Source: an uncultured Bacteroidales bacterium (lineage in GTDB: Bacteria; Bacteroidota; Bacteroidia; Bacteroidales; Bacteroidaceae). Taken from it: 64,000 nucleotides of DNA. The notes beneath the pieces are model-generated. The model did not search any database, was not told the DNA's origin, and worked only from the letters and a program-made list of their open reading frames with translations. Position 1 is the first letter of the stretch. Each line of letters begins with the position of its first letter. A program made the position numbers and the translations under genes. Location of the stretch: contig CACZAN010000014.1 of assembly GCA_902779165.1 (NCBI GenBank), positions 37,066 to 101,065 on the forward strand. Direction: 5' to 3'. Below are positions 7,040 through 63,295 of the stretch, piece by piece.

Positions 7040-7930
7040 ATGCATACAAGAGAAGAAAAACTGGAAGCGTTCGGGCGGTTGCTCGATGTGATGGACGACC
7101 TGCGGGAGAAGTGCCCGTGGGACCGCAAGCAGACGAACGAGAGCCTGCGGCCGAACACCATCGAGGAGACCTACGAACTGGCAGATGCCATCATCAAGAA
7201 CGACAAGACGGACATCTGCAAGGAGCTGGGCGACGTGCTGCTGCACATCGTCTTCTACGCCAAAATCGGGTCCGAGACGGGCGACTTCGACATCGCCGAC
7301 GTCTGCAACAAGCTCTGCGACAAGCTGATCTACAGACATCCGCATGTGTATCCCCCGGACTCTCCCCCCGCCCTCCCTGTTAAGGAGGGAGCAGAATCAT
7401 TTGATGGCTGTATTCCCTTATCCTCTAAGGTAACCGCTCCCTCCTTAACAGGGAGGGCGGGGGGAGAGTCCGCTCTGACCGCCGAAGAAGTCCTCAAGAA
7501 CTGGGAGCAGCTGAAGGTGAAGGAGAAGGACGGCAACAAGCGCGTGCTGAGCGGAGTTCCCGACGCTCTGCCCTCGCTCATCAAGGCCTACCGCATCCAG
7601 GACAAGGCACGCGGCGTAGGTTTCGACTGGGAGACGCCCGAACAGGTGTGGGACAAGGTACGCGAAGAGCTCGACGAGCTGGAAGTGGAGCTGAACCGCA
7701 ACGACAAGGAGAAGAGCACACAGGAACTGGGCGACTTCATCTTCGCCGTCATCAACGCCGCCCGCCTCTATAAGCTCAACCCCGACACGGCCCTGGAACT
7801 CACCAACCGCAAGTTCATCCGCCGCTTCACCTACCTCGAGGAACACAGCATCCGCATCGGAAAGCCCCTCACCGAGATGACGCTGGCAGAGATGGATGCC
7901 ATCTGGGAGGAGGCAAAGAAACAAGAATAA
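7040..7930 (+). CDS. mazG: Nucleoside triphosphate pyrophosphohydrolase MazG
   Basis: MazG hydrolyses (d)NTPs to NMP and pyrophosphate and cleans the nucleotide pool. The 296-residue protein has the two tandem MazG helical domains. The first has CPWDRKQTNESLRPNTIEE followed by KELGDVLLHIVFYAKI. The second has EELDELEVEL and QELGDFIFAVINAARL. In each, the E-x-x-E and E-x-x-D pairs are the Mg-binding acids. The start at 7040 (MHTREEKLEAF) matches family starts. About 35-40 extra residues (roughly 107-144, [11 protein letters not shown]...TGRAGGES) separate the domains and are encoded by a perfect inverted repeat, which is absent from the family as I know it. valS follows on the same strand 115 bp on, so the two may share a transcript. 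Confidence 0.9.
   Translation: MHTREEKLEAFGRLLDVMDDLREKCPWDRKQTNESLRPNTIEETYELADAIIKNDKTDICKELGDVLLHIVFYAKIGSETGDFDIADVCNKLCDKLIYRHPHVYPPDSPPALPVKEGAESFDGCIPLSSKVTAPSLTGRAGGESALTAEEVLKNWEQLKVKEKDGNKRVLSGVPDALPSLIKAYRIQDKARGVGFDWETPEQVWDKVREELDELEVELNRNDKEKSTQELGDFIFAVINAARLYKLNPDTALELTNRKFIRRFTYLEEHSIRIGKPLTEMTLAEMDAIWEEAKKQE
7358..7470. repeat. In-frame palindromic element inside mazG (perfect 35-bp arms)
   Basis: The left arm 7358-7392 and right arm 7436-7470 are exact reverse complements over 35 bases and are separated by 43 bp. Each arm holds its own small palindrome (CCCTCC...GGAGGG). The whole 113-bp unit is read through in the mazG frame. The same arm sequence recurs at 8076-8110 with a single change. 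Confidence 0.9.
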
Positions 7931-7933
7931 AAA

Positions 7934-8110
7934 GACTCTCCCCCCGAACCAGTCCAGCCGGAACACTTAATAGTTCCGTCTTCCCGGCACCCTGTTAGGG
8001 AGGGAGCAATTACCGGACAAGGATTAAAAACAAAAATATTTCAGAATGAGCGAAAACAAAACTTCAAAAGAAACCGCTCCCTCCCTAACAGGGAGGGCGG
8101 GGGGAGAGTC
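7934..8110. repeat. Palindromic element spanning the mazG-valS junction
   Basis: The right arm 8076-8110 matches the mazG right arm except for one base, and encodes the peptide [12 protein letters not shown] near the valS N-terminus. The left arm is split: GACTCTCCCCCCG at 7934-7946 and the rest at about 7991-8008. About 44 bp lie between, which themselves contain a CGGAAC...GTTCCG hairpin, as if a second palindrome had landed in the first. Confidence 0.8.
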
Positions 8111-11015
8111 CGGATGCGGACTTGCTTCTAAGTATTCTCCCGCCGAAGTGGAGGGGAAATGGTATCAGTACTGGTTAGACAATAAGCTGTTCAGCTCCAA
8201 GCCCGACGGCCGCGAGCCCTACACCATCGTGATTCCGCCACCCAACGTGACGGGGGTGCTGCACATGGGCCACGTGCTCAACGAGACCATACAGGACATC
8301 CTCGTGCGCCACGCCCGCATGGAGGGAAAGAACGCCTGCTGGGTGCCGGGCACAGACCACGCCAGCATTGCCACGGAGGCTAAGGTGGTGAACCGCCTGG
8401 CCGAACAAGGCATCAAAAAGGCCGACCTCACCCGCGAGGAGTTCCTGAAGCACGCCTGGGCATGGACCGAGGAGCACGGAGGCATCATCCTCAAACAGCT
8501 GCGCAAGCTCGGATGCTCCTGCGACTGGGACCGCACGGCATTCACCATGGACGGACCGCGCAGCGAGAGCGTCATCAAGGTCTTCGTGGACCTCTACCGC
8601 AAGGGACTCATCTACCGCGGAGTACGCATGGTGAACTGGGACCCCAAGGCCCTCACCGCCCTCTCCGACGAGGAAGTGGTCTATAAAGAAGAGCACACCA
8701 AGCTCTACTACATGAAATACTACCTGGCAGAGCGTGTGCCCAGCGATTTCGTCGCCGGGGAAGGAGCCGTCGTCCACAAGGACGAAAAAGGCTACTACGC
8801 CGTTGTCGCCACCACACGCCCGGAGACCATCATGGGCGACGTGGCCATGTGCATCAACCCCAACGACCCGAAGAACCAATGGCTGAAGGGCAAGAAGGTC
8901 ATCGTGCCCGTCGTGGGCCGCGTCATCCCCGTCATCGAGGACGAATACGTGGACATCGAGTTCGGTACGGGCTGCCTGAAGGTGACTCCCGCCCACGATG
9001 TCAACGACTACATGCTCGGCGAGAAGTACAACCTCGAAGCCATCGACATCTTCAACGACGACGCCACCCTCAGCGACCGCATCGTCGCCGCCCAGCAAGC
9101 GGCTCTCGCCGCTAATAGTGTGTCCGATGATTTCGTCATCGGATTGGAACGCTACGTAGGCACAGAGCGCTTCGCCTGCCGCAAGCAGATTGCCGAAGAC
9201 ATGGTTGCCGCAGGCCTCATGGAGAAGATTGAGGACTACGACAACAAGATTGGCTGCAGCGAGCGCACAGGCGTGCCCATCGAGCCGAAGCTGTCGATGC
9301 AATGGTTCCTGAAGATGCAGCACATGGCCGACATCTCCCTCTCGCCCGTGATGAACGACGACATCCAGTTCTACCCCGCCAAGTACAAGAACACCTACCG
9401 CCACTGGCTCGAGAACATCAAGGACTGGTGCATCAGCCGACAGCTCTGGTGGGGACATCGCATTCCCGCGTGGTATATCGACCAGCCCCTCTCCAACTCC
9501 CCCCGTGGGGGGGAGGGATTCCCCTGGGGCAAAGTCATCGTGGCCGAGAACGAGGAAGAAGCCTACAAGCTCGCCCTTGAAACATATCCTATTCTCAAAA
9601 CTCTCCCCCCCACGGGGGGAGCCGGAGAGGGGCTTGGTTTCACACTTAAGCAGGACGAAGACGCGCTGGACACCTGGTTCTCCAGCTGGCTGTGGCCCAT
9701 CAGTCTCTTCGACGGCATCCGCCATCCGGGCAACGAGGAAATGAAATACTACTACCCCACGGCCGACCTCGTGACAGGTCCCGACATCATCTTCTTCTGG
9801 GTGGCCCGCATGATCATGGCAGGCTACGAGTACGAAGGCAAGATGCCGTTCCGCCACGTCTATTTCACAGGTATCGTGCGCGACAAGCTCGGCCGCAAGA
9901 TGTCCAAGTCCTTAGGAAACAGCCCTGACCCCCTCGACCTCATCGAGCGCTTCGGAGCCGACGGCGTGCGCATGGGCATGATGCTCAGCGCCCCTGCCGG
10001 CAACGACATCCTCTTCGACGAGGCACTCTGCGAACAGGGCCGCAACTTCAACAACAAGATCTGGAACGCCTTCCGTTTGGTGAAGGGATGGGAGGTGACG
10101 GCCCCCCTGTCGTCCCCCGAGGGGGACACGGATGCCAAGTCCGCTGCCAACAACACTATAGAAGCCCCCTCGGGGGCCGTAGAGGGGGCCAGTGCCCTTG
10201 CCACCCAATGGTTTGCCGCCAAGCTGCGCCTCGCCGCCGAGGAACTGGCCGACGACTTCTCGAAGTACCGCCTGTCCGAAGCCCTGATGACGGTCTATAA
10301 ACTCTTCTGGGACGAGTTCTCCAGCTGGTATCTCGAGATGGTGAAGCCCGCCTACATCGACGGCAAGCCCCAACCCGTAGACCGCGCCACCTACGACGCC
10401 ACGCTCCAGTTCTTCGAAGTCCTGCTGAAGATGCTGCACCCCTTCATGCCCTTCATCACCGAGGAACTCTGGCAGGCCCTCTACGACCGCCAGCCCGGCG
10501 AGAGCATCATGCGCGCAGAACTCCACCTGCCCGCCGCCACCGATGCCGACCGCCAGCTCTGCGCCGACTTCGAGGCCGTGAAGGAAGTGGTCACCTCCAT
10601 CCGCGCCGTCCGCAGCCAAAAGAACATCGCTCCACGCGAACCATTGACCTTAGAAATCGTTGGCAAGAAAGAAGAACTGGCCATCTTCAATTTCGAATCT
10701 TCAATAAAGAAGATGGCCAACCTCTCTGCCATCAACGCCGTTACGGAGAAGAGCAACGGCAGCGCCAGCTTCCTCGTGGGCACCACGGAATATGCCGTAC
10801 CTCTGGGCGACCTCATCGACCTCGATGCCGAGCGCAAGAAGCTGGAAGGCGAACTGCAGCACCTCGAAGGCTTCCTCGCCAACGTGGAAAAGAAGCTGCA
10901 GAACGAACGCTTCGTGCAGAATGCGCCTGCCGCCGTCGTAGATATGGAACGCAAGAAACAGGCCGACGCCCAGCAGAAGATTGCCGCCTTGCGCGACACA
11001 CTCGCAAACCTGTAA
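8046..11015 (+). CDS. valS: Valyl-tRNA synthetase (with three repeat-derived inserts)
   Basis: Charges tRNA-Val with valine. The 989-residue class I enzyme shows the HIGH-type motif in [20 protein letters not shown] (near residue 70) and the KMSKS motif in [19 protein letters not shown]. It also has the [16 protein letters not shown] stretch, the editing domain ([19 protein letters not shown]), the anticodon-binding helices and a C-terminal coiled coil ([19 protein letters not shown]). Three segments are not part of the family and coincide with palindromic repeats: residues about 9-25 at the N-terminus, [11 protein letters not shown]...[10 protein letters not shown] around 480-530, and PLSSPEGD...APSGAVEGA around 685-715. 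All keep the frame and the catalytic motifs are intact, so the enzyme should work. The start at 8046 lies just ahead of the first insert. Confidence 0.95.
9484..9634. repeat. Split in-frame inverted repeat inside valS (copy 2)
   Basis: The left arm about 9484-9514 (AGCCCCTCTCCAACTCCCCC) pairs with the right arm about 9602-9634, with two mismatches in the first 30 bases. The bases between the arms encode ordinary ValRS-looking sequence ([15 protein letters not shown]), so here the arms flank native codons. Both arms are translated in frame. Confidence 0.8.
10100..10190. repeat. In-frame inverted repeat inside valS (copy 3)
   Basis: The left arm 10100-10126 and right arm 10164-10190 are imperfect reverse complements built around CCCCCGAGGGGG. 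The segment is read as PLSSPEGD...APSGAVEGA in the valS frame, between the conserved [16 protein letters not shown] and [17 protein letters not shown] segments. Confidence 0.8.
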
Positions 11016-63181: not shown

Positions 63182-63295
63182 TGACAATGGTAGCCAGCCA
63201 TTTCAATGGCTGGTAATGAGGATGTTAACGGATAGCGTGCCGTAGGTACGCGACAGGGATTTGATGTCGCGTGAAACGGCTGGCTACCATTGTCA
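63182..63295. repeat. Compound palindromic repeat
   Basis: TGACAATGGTAGCCAGCC (63182-63199) is perfectly matched in reverse by 63278-63295. Between are two perfect hairpins: AGCCATT-TC-AATGGCT (63196-63211) and ACGCGACA...TGTCGCGT (63248-63272). The GCGTGCC...GGTACGCGACA part recurs at 464-486. No gene lies here. Confidence 0.75.

Follow-up and report, generated by a model that had tools for sequence, protein, structure and literature searches.

The window examined here is a stretch of 64,000 nucleotides (nt) from an uncultured Bacteroidales bacterium, in which two neighbouring, co-directional genes, mazG and valS, carry GC-rich palindromic inserts. These inserts are probably short, nuclease-less members of a family of mobile elements whose full-length form has a gene for a DUF559 nuclease between hairpin arms, a conclusion drawn from comparative sequence analysis. 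Genomes (G), contigs (C) and loci (L) are cited by our own numbers where needed.

The mazG gene (7040..7930, on the forward strand like all features below; nucleotide pyrophosphohydrolase, PF03819, E = 7.8e-37) contains an inverted repeat made of two 37-nt family I arms, 100% complementary (7356-7392 and 7436-7472), on either side of a 43-nt spacer (7393-7435) that is read in frame together with both arms. Arms here and below were identified by inverted-repeat search, supported in mazG by genome-wide copies (left arm) and frame analysis (right arm). An initial annotation made from these letters alone had reported this repeat as perfect, but gave its length as 35 bp. The valS gene (8046..11015; valyl-tRNA synthetase, PF00133, E = 7.2e-125), whose product is the genome's best ValRS match among the matches listed, holds three elements. 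The one at its start comprises an interrupted left arm, with an outer piece just past the mazG stop codon at 7928-7930 (7933-7945) and an inner piece (7990-8007), then a start codon and leader borne by the element (8046-8075, recognised by comparing occupied with empty junctions in relatives), and a family I right arm entering the ValRS N-terminus in frame (8076-8110, also found by core-motif search). An 18-nt repeat couples the mazG-valS gap to the valS N-terminus. As originally noticed, the latter arm is the mazG right arm with one change, and an identical peptide is read from both. The two further inverted repeats announced for valS are likewise present, in imperfect form: family II arms at site 2 (9484-9520 and 9598-9634, 89% complementary) and family III arms at site 3 (10100-10125 and 10165-10190, 81%). 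The repeats thus fall into three arm families, instead of being one kind of element as first supposed. Neither ORF (open reading frame) is interrupted by an in-frame stop, and translation of the repeats in frame holds in mazG and at the valS sites. The exception is the left arm of the element at the start of valS, which falls in the gap separating the two genes and is untranslated. Site 2 has inverted arms as predicted, but these enclose 77 nt of host-like ValRS sequence and no element-specific spacer. The 20-mer core of the arm occurs 3 times in the window, against a mean of 0.00 over 100 shuffles. The approximately 44 nt interrupting the valS left arm (7946-7989) are close to a piece within a left arm of G016 (C6:68077, L278) and possibly represent a nested element.

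The link to a nuclease comes from other copies of the same arms. Two family I arms, 462 nt apart (C2:19037 and 19499), enclose a 123-codon DUF559 ORF (PF04480, 113.4 bits), and the second DUF559 gene of this genome (C30:36517-36834, 110.2 bits) lies between family II arms; both proteins score above the Pfam cut-off of 20.6 bits. By eye, family III-like arms flank a DUF559 gene in G077 (L372). The domain is found in 100 of 139 genomes of the genus. Inverted arms, defined by an inverted repeat score of at least 16 around the domain, were detected at 44 of 52 genus loci, compared to 4 of 160 control windows obtained by shifting within the same loci. The eight loci below threshold (L343, L344, L345, L347, L348, L353, L374 and L377) were retained in this count, L345 and L348 being misplaced at contig edges; L329, a 20.7-bit match in a helicase-like ORF, was excluded from the 52. 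A first pass, from which 7 of 33 loci were dropped when the motif was not found, had given arms at 23 of 26 loci and at none of 103 controls, and a phylum-wide sample gave 11 of 30 versus 2 of 110. Moreover, arms and nucleases covary. After removal of four loci with no arm (L345, L347, L348, L353) and two with a broken ORF (L362, L369), 46 remained, 42 of them above the arm threshold; in these 42, DUF559 identity correlated with arm similarity (Mantel r 0.443; none of 2000 permutations as high, maximum 0.249), mean arm similarity being 0.71 for DUF559 pairs at least 60% identical and 0.41 for pairs below 45%. L362 (G094, C42:25200-27700) is unusual in that its stop-bearing DUF559 gene lies between inverted repeats of approximately 134 nt, far longer than elsewhere.

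For a 121-residue DUF559 protein, matches were obtained to 3hrl, which is endonuclease-like (E = 6.4e-16), and, weakly (E = 0.15), to 3r3p, a mobile intron protein that we take to be I-Bth0305I. The NCBIfam match to DUF559 was under its cut-off, and PADLOC returned weak matches, including one to a homing endonuclease (E = 0.0024). A Caulobacter DUF559 protein is described as a Vsr-like PD-(D/E)XK enzyme that causes an SOS response in cells lacking a methyltransferase (PMC12907096), and segments of Legionella genomes with a transposase and DUF559 are reported to be recombination hotspots (PMC12308824). Plasmid DUF559 matches (39 records) were all less than 60% identical, and no DUF559 occurrence in viral contigs was confirmed.

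Nine DUF559 elements with family I or near-family-I arms were examined: one each in G000, G099, G077, G043 and G019 and two each in G094 and G088. They include L302, with eroded arms and a stop in its ORF. In seven of the nine, the TGA stop codon of the nuclease overlaps an ATG (ATGA) whose leader continues via the right arm into the next gene. The genes so linked encode an MFS transporter (G000, G094), a mannitol dehydrogenase (G094), an amino-acid kinase (G099), a formyltransferase (G077, G043) and an unnamed product (G019). At the mannitol dehydrogenase (uxaB-like) locus, orthologous sites carry the full element in G094 and a short form without a nuclease ORF in G000. The two have the same left arm, leader, right arm and upstream gene end, a short gap replacing the nuclease in G000. 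This site provides the most direct evidence that start-straddling elements derive their structure from the full element by lacking its nuclease.

In some cases the nuclease has become part of a host protein. The DUF559 frame extends at least 100 residues past the domain in 11 of 46 genus loci. Pfam analysis identified an IspG-DUF559 fusion followed by a CysRS gene starting from leader and arm, a phosphoglycerate mutase-DUF559 fusion, two cases of DUF559-guanylate kinase and a DUF559 domain splitting an epimerase-cupin protein. Outside the genus, DUF559 lies between LeuRS domains and between MetH domains, a second case of each being recognised by eye. The in-frame DUF559 domains of LeuRS (L382, L385) and MetH (L402, L408) come with arm-like peptides in eroded form, for example SLGEGQGER and LPFGEGRGG. 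The invasion of conserved host genes (LeuRS, MetH, IspG, guanylate kinase) by a nuclease gene is a hallmark of homing endonucleases. No intein family was among the matches at E of 1e-5 or less for the 14 sequences examined, in which introns were not searched for.

Comparison of the mazG-valS junction across relatives suggests how an element may take over a gene start. In element-free relatives (for example G016, G041, G043 and G136), the mazG stop nearly abuts the valS start. The junction is occupied, in the order arm, leader ATG, arm, in G000, G015, G094 and G121, the left arm being uninterrupted in the last three. At occupied junctions the native ATG is out of frame (G000) or gone (G015), and in G094 and G121 the mazG frame continues into the left arm. 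Diverged elements occupy the valS start of G099, G138, G048, G074, G114, G119, G060 and G011, while G019 and G077 have the right arm there and no clear left arm. In a ValRS tree from which the insert regions were excluded (47 sequences, 790 columns; branch support not inspected), sister lineages differ in a patchy manner in whether they carry an element, both at the N-terminus and at site 2. Sequence upstream of the arm is occasionally shared as well: 12 of 3364 same-genome arm pairs have common extended upstream sequence, compared to none in a control misregistered by a single shift. Six of the 12 include the start leader, the others sharing spacer or cluster sequence; three G003 genes have one leader, and two G000 genes have identical ones. 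The leader is thus carried along with the arm.

Arm copies are numerous. With up to 2 mismatches allowed, the 19-mer family I core matches the 3.59 Mb assembly 45 times (25 forward, 20 reverse), the reversed-pattern control giving 0 and 0; the family II pattern has 8 matches (0 and 1 for its reversed control) and that of family III has one. The arm is thus not confined to mazG and valS, a situation that would have spoken against the initial annotation, but recurs in many genes; nor are its residues present in MazG of distant Bacteroidales, Bacteroides having a 25-residue loop there. In the genus, a 16-mer (at most 1 mismatch) was found in 57 of 101 sampled genomes, with top counts of 80, 78 and 67. 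The closest named relatives identified through MazG are uncultured Prevotellaceae or Bacteroidaceae, several of them rumen-derived.

Most of the arms that reach a gene do so in a single frame. Family I arms are open in one frame, which encodes a linker rich in Pro, Gly and Ser, so that in-frame insertion keeps the host protein continuous. Among 58 arm copies in the stretches retrieved from this genome, 29 enter coding sequence in the frame of the shared peptide (frame 0), after removal of two weak rows (C2:19499 and C17:579) from the 31 listed by the analysis restricted to frame 0. A test of all frames found one arm, C16:65941, in another frame, in surroundings that look extragenic; a codon-model classification gave 34 element rows. 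Fourteen arm pairs have coding frame 0 on both flanks on one strand. Eleven of these are clear within-ORF elements, whose arm spacing is 92 nt (eight pairs) or 95 nt (three pairs), that is, one codon apart; the remaining three (116, 157 and 168 nt) straddle starts and have stops between the arms. Other pairs are spaced by 116 to 172 nt with no multiple-of-three rule. Over four genomes, 70 of 160 arms enter coding sequence in frame 0, the two remaining frames accounting for 4 and 5; for 56 the gene is on the opposite strand or the placement differs in some other way, and the remainder are unclassed; only part of the G016 and G088 places went into this count. One arm frame includes TAA or TAG, and the bias is therefore ascribed to survival of open frames rather than to targeting.

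Two architectures can be distinguished. In class A, the entire short element lies within an ORF, as in mazG. Pfam-identified hosts in this genome include HisRS, PurL (FGAR-AT domains), MutS2, an AcrB-type pump, altronate dehydratase, a DHH protein, an MFS transporter and a HATPase protein. Class B elements straddle a gene start, with the left arm after the upstream stop, the start codon between the arms and the right arm a few codons on; in a variant, the upstream gene reads into the left arm. Their hosts include NadC, Pth, a DNA polymerase III delta-type subunit, UPF0029, a sulfatase, mannitol dehydrogenase and MacB/FtsX-type proteins. An in-frame ATG was found in 35 of 38 N-terminal cases from four genomes, the furthest one lying 13-18 codons before the core in 24 of the 35. 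The elements are therefore palindromic, multi-copy and in frame in unrelated ORFs, housekeeping genes included, which supports the resemblance to Rickettsia palindromic elements (RPEs) proposed at the outset. Their initial description as portable exons captures the in-frame insertion but is incomplete, in that many copies straddle starts, bring a start codon, or have arms that flank a DUF559 gene.

The same protein sites hold different inserts in different species. In G000 the MazG loop is occupied by family I arms; in G138, G106, G105 and G115 it holds palindromes of other kinds, each of them in frame. A plain 31-residue loop is present at 22 of 30 loci, and the loop measures 25 residues in Bacteroides and 46 to 50 in many Prevotella. 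No close empty site for the mazG element was found among the relatives compared. Many Prevotella MazG proteins (L136-L198) have a longer common loop, HPSQVG..PKPLPYGE, which might be what remains of an ancient insert of this type. At ValRS site 2 (9484-9634), several arm types occur among relatives, and the segment between the arms differs from that of most unarmed relatives. The comparison of 8 armed with unarmed sequences had suggested a mobile host-coding cassette made of arms plus variant segment, an idea weakened by the intermediate segments of left-armed and differently armed genomes. Many relatives have no element at site 3, and other inserts lie nearby in G055, L123, L124 and G090. Finally, an insertion in MutS2 is old, being shared by three species and degenerate in one.

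These data are best explained by a model in which the full element consists of a DUF559 gene, for a Vsr-like PD-(D/E)XK endonuclease, between two inverted, GC-rich, hairpin-forming arms. The nuclease would cut DNA and thereby start the copying of the element; it might recognise the hairpin arms, and copying could proceed by break repair or through a hairpin intermediate. Short start-straddling forms arise through loss of the nuclease ORF, as observed at the uxaB-like gene, and, by retaining leader and arm, leave the host gene tied to the element's start. Short forms in general may be mobilised in trans or spread through recombination among copies, and loss of an element would be hindered once it provides the start codon.

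A number of points weigh against this model. We infer mobility and DNA cutting from sequences that come mostly from metagenome-assembled genomes; what can be read from these sequences directly is the linkage of arms to nuclease, their covariation, the frame compatibility of the arms, the replaced starts, the full and short forms at one site and the patchy presence. The 52 genus loci combine 32 best matches with 20 chosen among the places listed, for the most part in genomes rich in repeats, and do not represent every DUF559 match; the arm threshold was missed by 8 of them and by 19 of the 30 phylum loci. Part of the correlation between arms and nucleases is due to shared ancestry, as in any co-inherited pair. 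Only 7 of 11 family-I-rich genomes have a family-I-armed DUF559 gene, none being present in G015, G016, G003 or G075 among the DUF559 loci retrieved. Class A elements, the mazG insert among them, have no nuclease remnant, and just their shared arms and inner ends suggest descent from the full element. At C17:79945 and at Pth (C4:64837), the native ATG remains 3' of the arm, whose translation there is doubtful. Lastly, some arms in other genomes sit in other frames.

The arms could, alternatively, belong to an older element, like the repetitive extragenic palindromic (REP) sequences or the miniature inverted-repeat transposable elements (MITEs), with DUF559 a passenger that has entered certain copies and benefits from their mobility. 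This would fit the fact that most copies are nuclease-less (45 arm matches versus 2 armed DUF559 genes in this genome), as well as the 4 of 11 family-I-rich genomes with no family-I-armed DUF559 gene among the loci examined; it is nonetheless unlikely, as the covariation, the presence of arms at most examined DUF559 genes of many families and the recurrent ATGA overlap better fit a co-evolved unit. Retention of the inserts for a function, as flexible protein linkers or as mRNA hairpins regulating translation at start codons, with mobility secondary, seems very unlikely. Old shared insertions (MutS2), the framing of many start codons by arms and the occupation of ValRS site 2 across many lineages would speak for such a function; set against it are the patchy presence between sister ValRS lineages (support values not inspected), the unrelated arm families in one and the same MazG loop of different species and the diversity of host genes. 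Terminal inverted repeats, short size and multiple copies are also features of MITEs, but derivation from an unseen DDE transposon with these terminal repeats is highly improbable: at the loci read, the gene found between such arms is DUF559, and the space would seem too small to conceal a DDE enzyme, for which no search was made.

A transposase of a different kind was considered in the form of RAYT, the Y1/HUH enzyme that moves REPINs, the inverted doublets of REP sequences. Family I arms have a REPIN-like shape (a palindrome with a G-rich tail, in inverted doublets), family III arms have GTAG beside the hairpin, and the genome contains eight RAYT-like genes (15 matches, grouped), with three PF01797 matches. 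In addition, REPs within ORFs are on record for many species (PMC3733652), including in-frame copies inside tnpAREP genes (PMC6006769). That the inserts are REPINs moved by RAYT and merely tolerated within ORFs is nevertheless quite unlikely, since none of 47 RAYT or Y1 loci (several overlapping) has paired family I arms. The 11 family I pattern matches at these loci include one (L237) that is hairpin-like by eye, more than 1 kb from the gene; no GTAG or CGTC is seen at the foot of family I arms by eye, and arms of this type flank DUF559 genes instead. On either side of the clear Y1 gene, at L070, lies a repeat of another type, a GTAG double-foot REP. PF01797 and RAYT-like searches of this genome, the RAYT-like search of the genus and the arm scan of the 47 loci thus failed to support RAYT as the mover. 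The genome's REP-Y1 pair is a repeat separate from the family I arms. The GTAG double-foot REP (GGTAGCCAGCC...), which flanks the 160-aa Y1 transposase gene of L070, is also present in the window, at 63182-63295; the eight RAYT-like proteins of one genome are diverse (L203, L233-L236, L238, L243).

Elements bounded by their own palindromes have precedents. RPEs are short, comprise several families and lie in frame in unrelated housekeeping genes, where they encode a conserved peptide (PMC10969869). The present elements resemble them in these respects, by description and not by sequence, but occur in another phylum, take the place of start codons in addition and possess a partner that bears a nuclease. 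We know of no such partner for RPEs. In REPIN-RAYT systems (PMC6006769), a dedicated nuclease gene is flanked by its own palindrome family; the resemblance extends to the inverted palindrome doublets. Here, however, the nuclease is a PD-(D/E)XK, Vsr-like DUF559 protein rather than an HUH Y1 enzyme, the GTAG/CGTC foot is missing (the GTAG of family III lies beside the hairpin in non-canonical order), no cognate Y1 gene was identified at the 47 loci, and the arms are mostly intragenic or start-straddling rather than extragenic, most of those outside the 29 of 58 in coding frame 0 being their partner arms. The EDxHD homing endonucleases, which include I-Bth0305I (PMC3943268), are likewise solitary nucleases with a restriction-enzyme-like active site and a link to mobility, the match to 3r3p being weak (see above); hairpin arms and many nuclease-less copies set the present elements apart. 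Caulobacter VsrA has the same DUF559 domain and Vsr-like PD-(D/E)XK assignment but is tied to DNA methylation (PMC12907096), whereas here inverted arms bound the gene and host-gene fusions are frequent. Porphyromonas gingivalis MITEs are also short inverted-repeat elements of Bacteroidales; the portion of their description available (PMC4596501) mentions no in-frame or nuclease link, and sequences were not compared.

In-frame palindromes are thus not new in kind, since intragenic REPs, REPs in tnpAREP genes and RPEs are on record. What appears new is the combination of a solitary Vsr-like nuclease, hairpin arms that bound it and covary with it, derivatives devoid of the nuclease, and the capture of gene starts, because the enzyme class and the mode of residence in genes differ from those of REPIN-RAYT, RPEs, MITEs and intron- or intein-borne homing elements. 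No account of DUF559 with palindromic arms was found among the titles and abstract openings surveyed in the open-access literature, most subscription papers lying outside the search. A broader proposal, on which we would put even chances, is that the elements, with their Vsr-like nuclease between hairpin arms, form a new class in Bacteroidota. They would spread through coding DNA because they remain translatable, and would take over operon junctions by replacing the native start, the downstream gene, often essential, coming to depend on translation coupled through ATGA to that of the nuclease; comparable elements may also have left behind the protein-coding palindromes known elsewhere, among them RPEs. 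To our knowledge, how protein-coding palindromic elements move has been an open question ever since RPEs were described. Because the arms bound a nuclease and covary with it, and because a single orthologous site holds both the full and the short form, this question can now be tested using a single small enzyme and the arms that belong to it. Arms tolerated as linkers and a start codon supplied by the element suggest a route by which selfish DNA may enter essential genes in the absence of introns or inteins. It would also follow that odd N-termini and endonuclease domains annotated in Bacteroidota LeuRS, MetH, IspG and guanylate kinase are insertions and not host domains.

Two further observations concern arm-bearing genes. 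In several exported proteins the arm appears, by eye, to be placed after an apparent signal peptide. At L074 (G000, C4:84000-93775), two similar adjacent genes both carry arms, one of them three; one has a FecR C-terminal domain and the other has no Pfam match.

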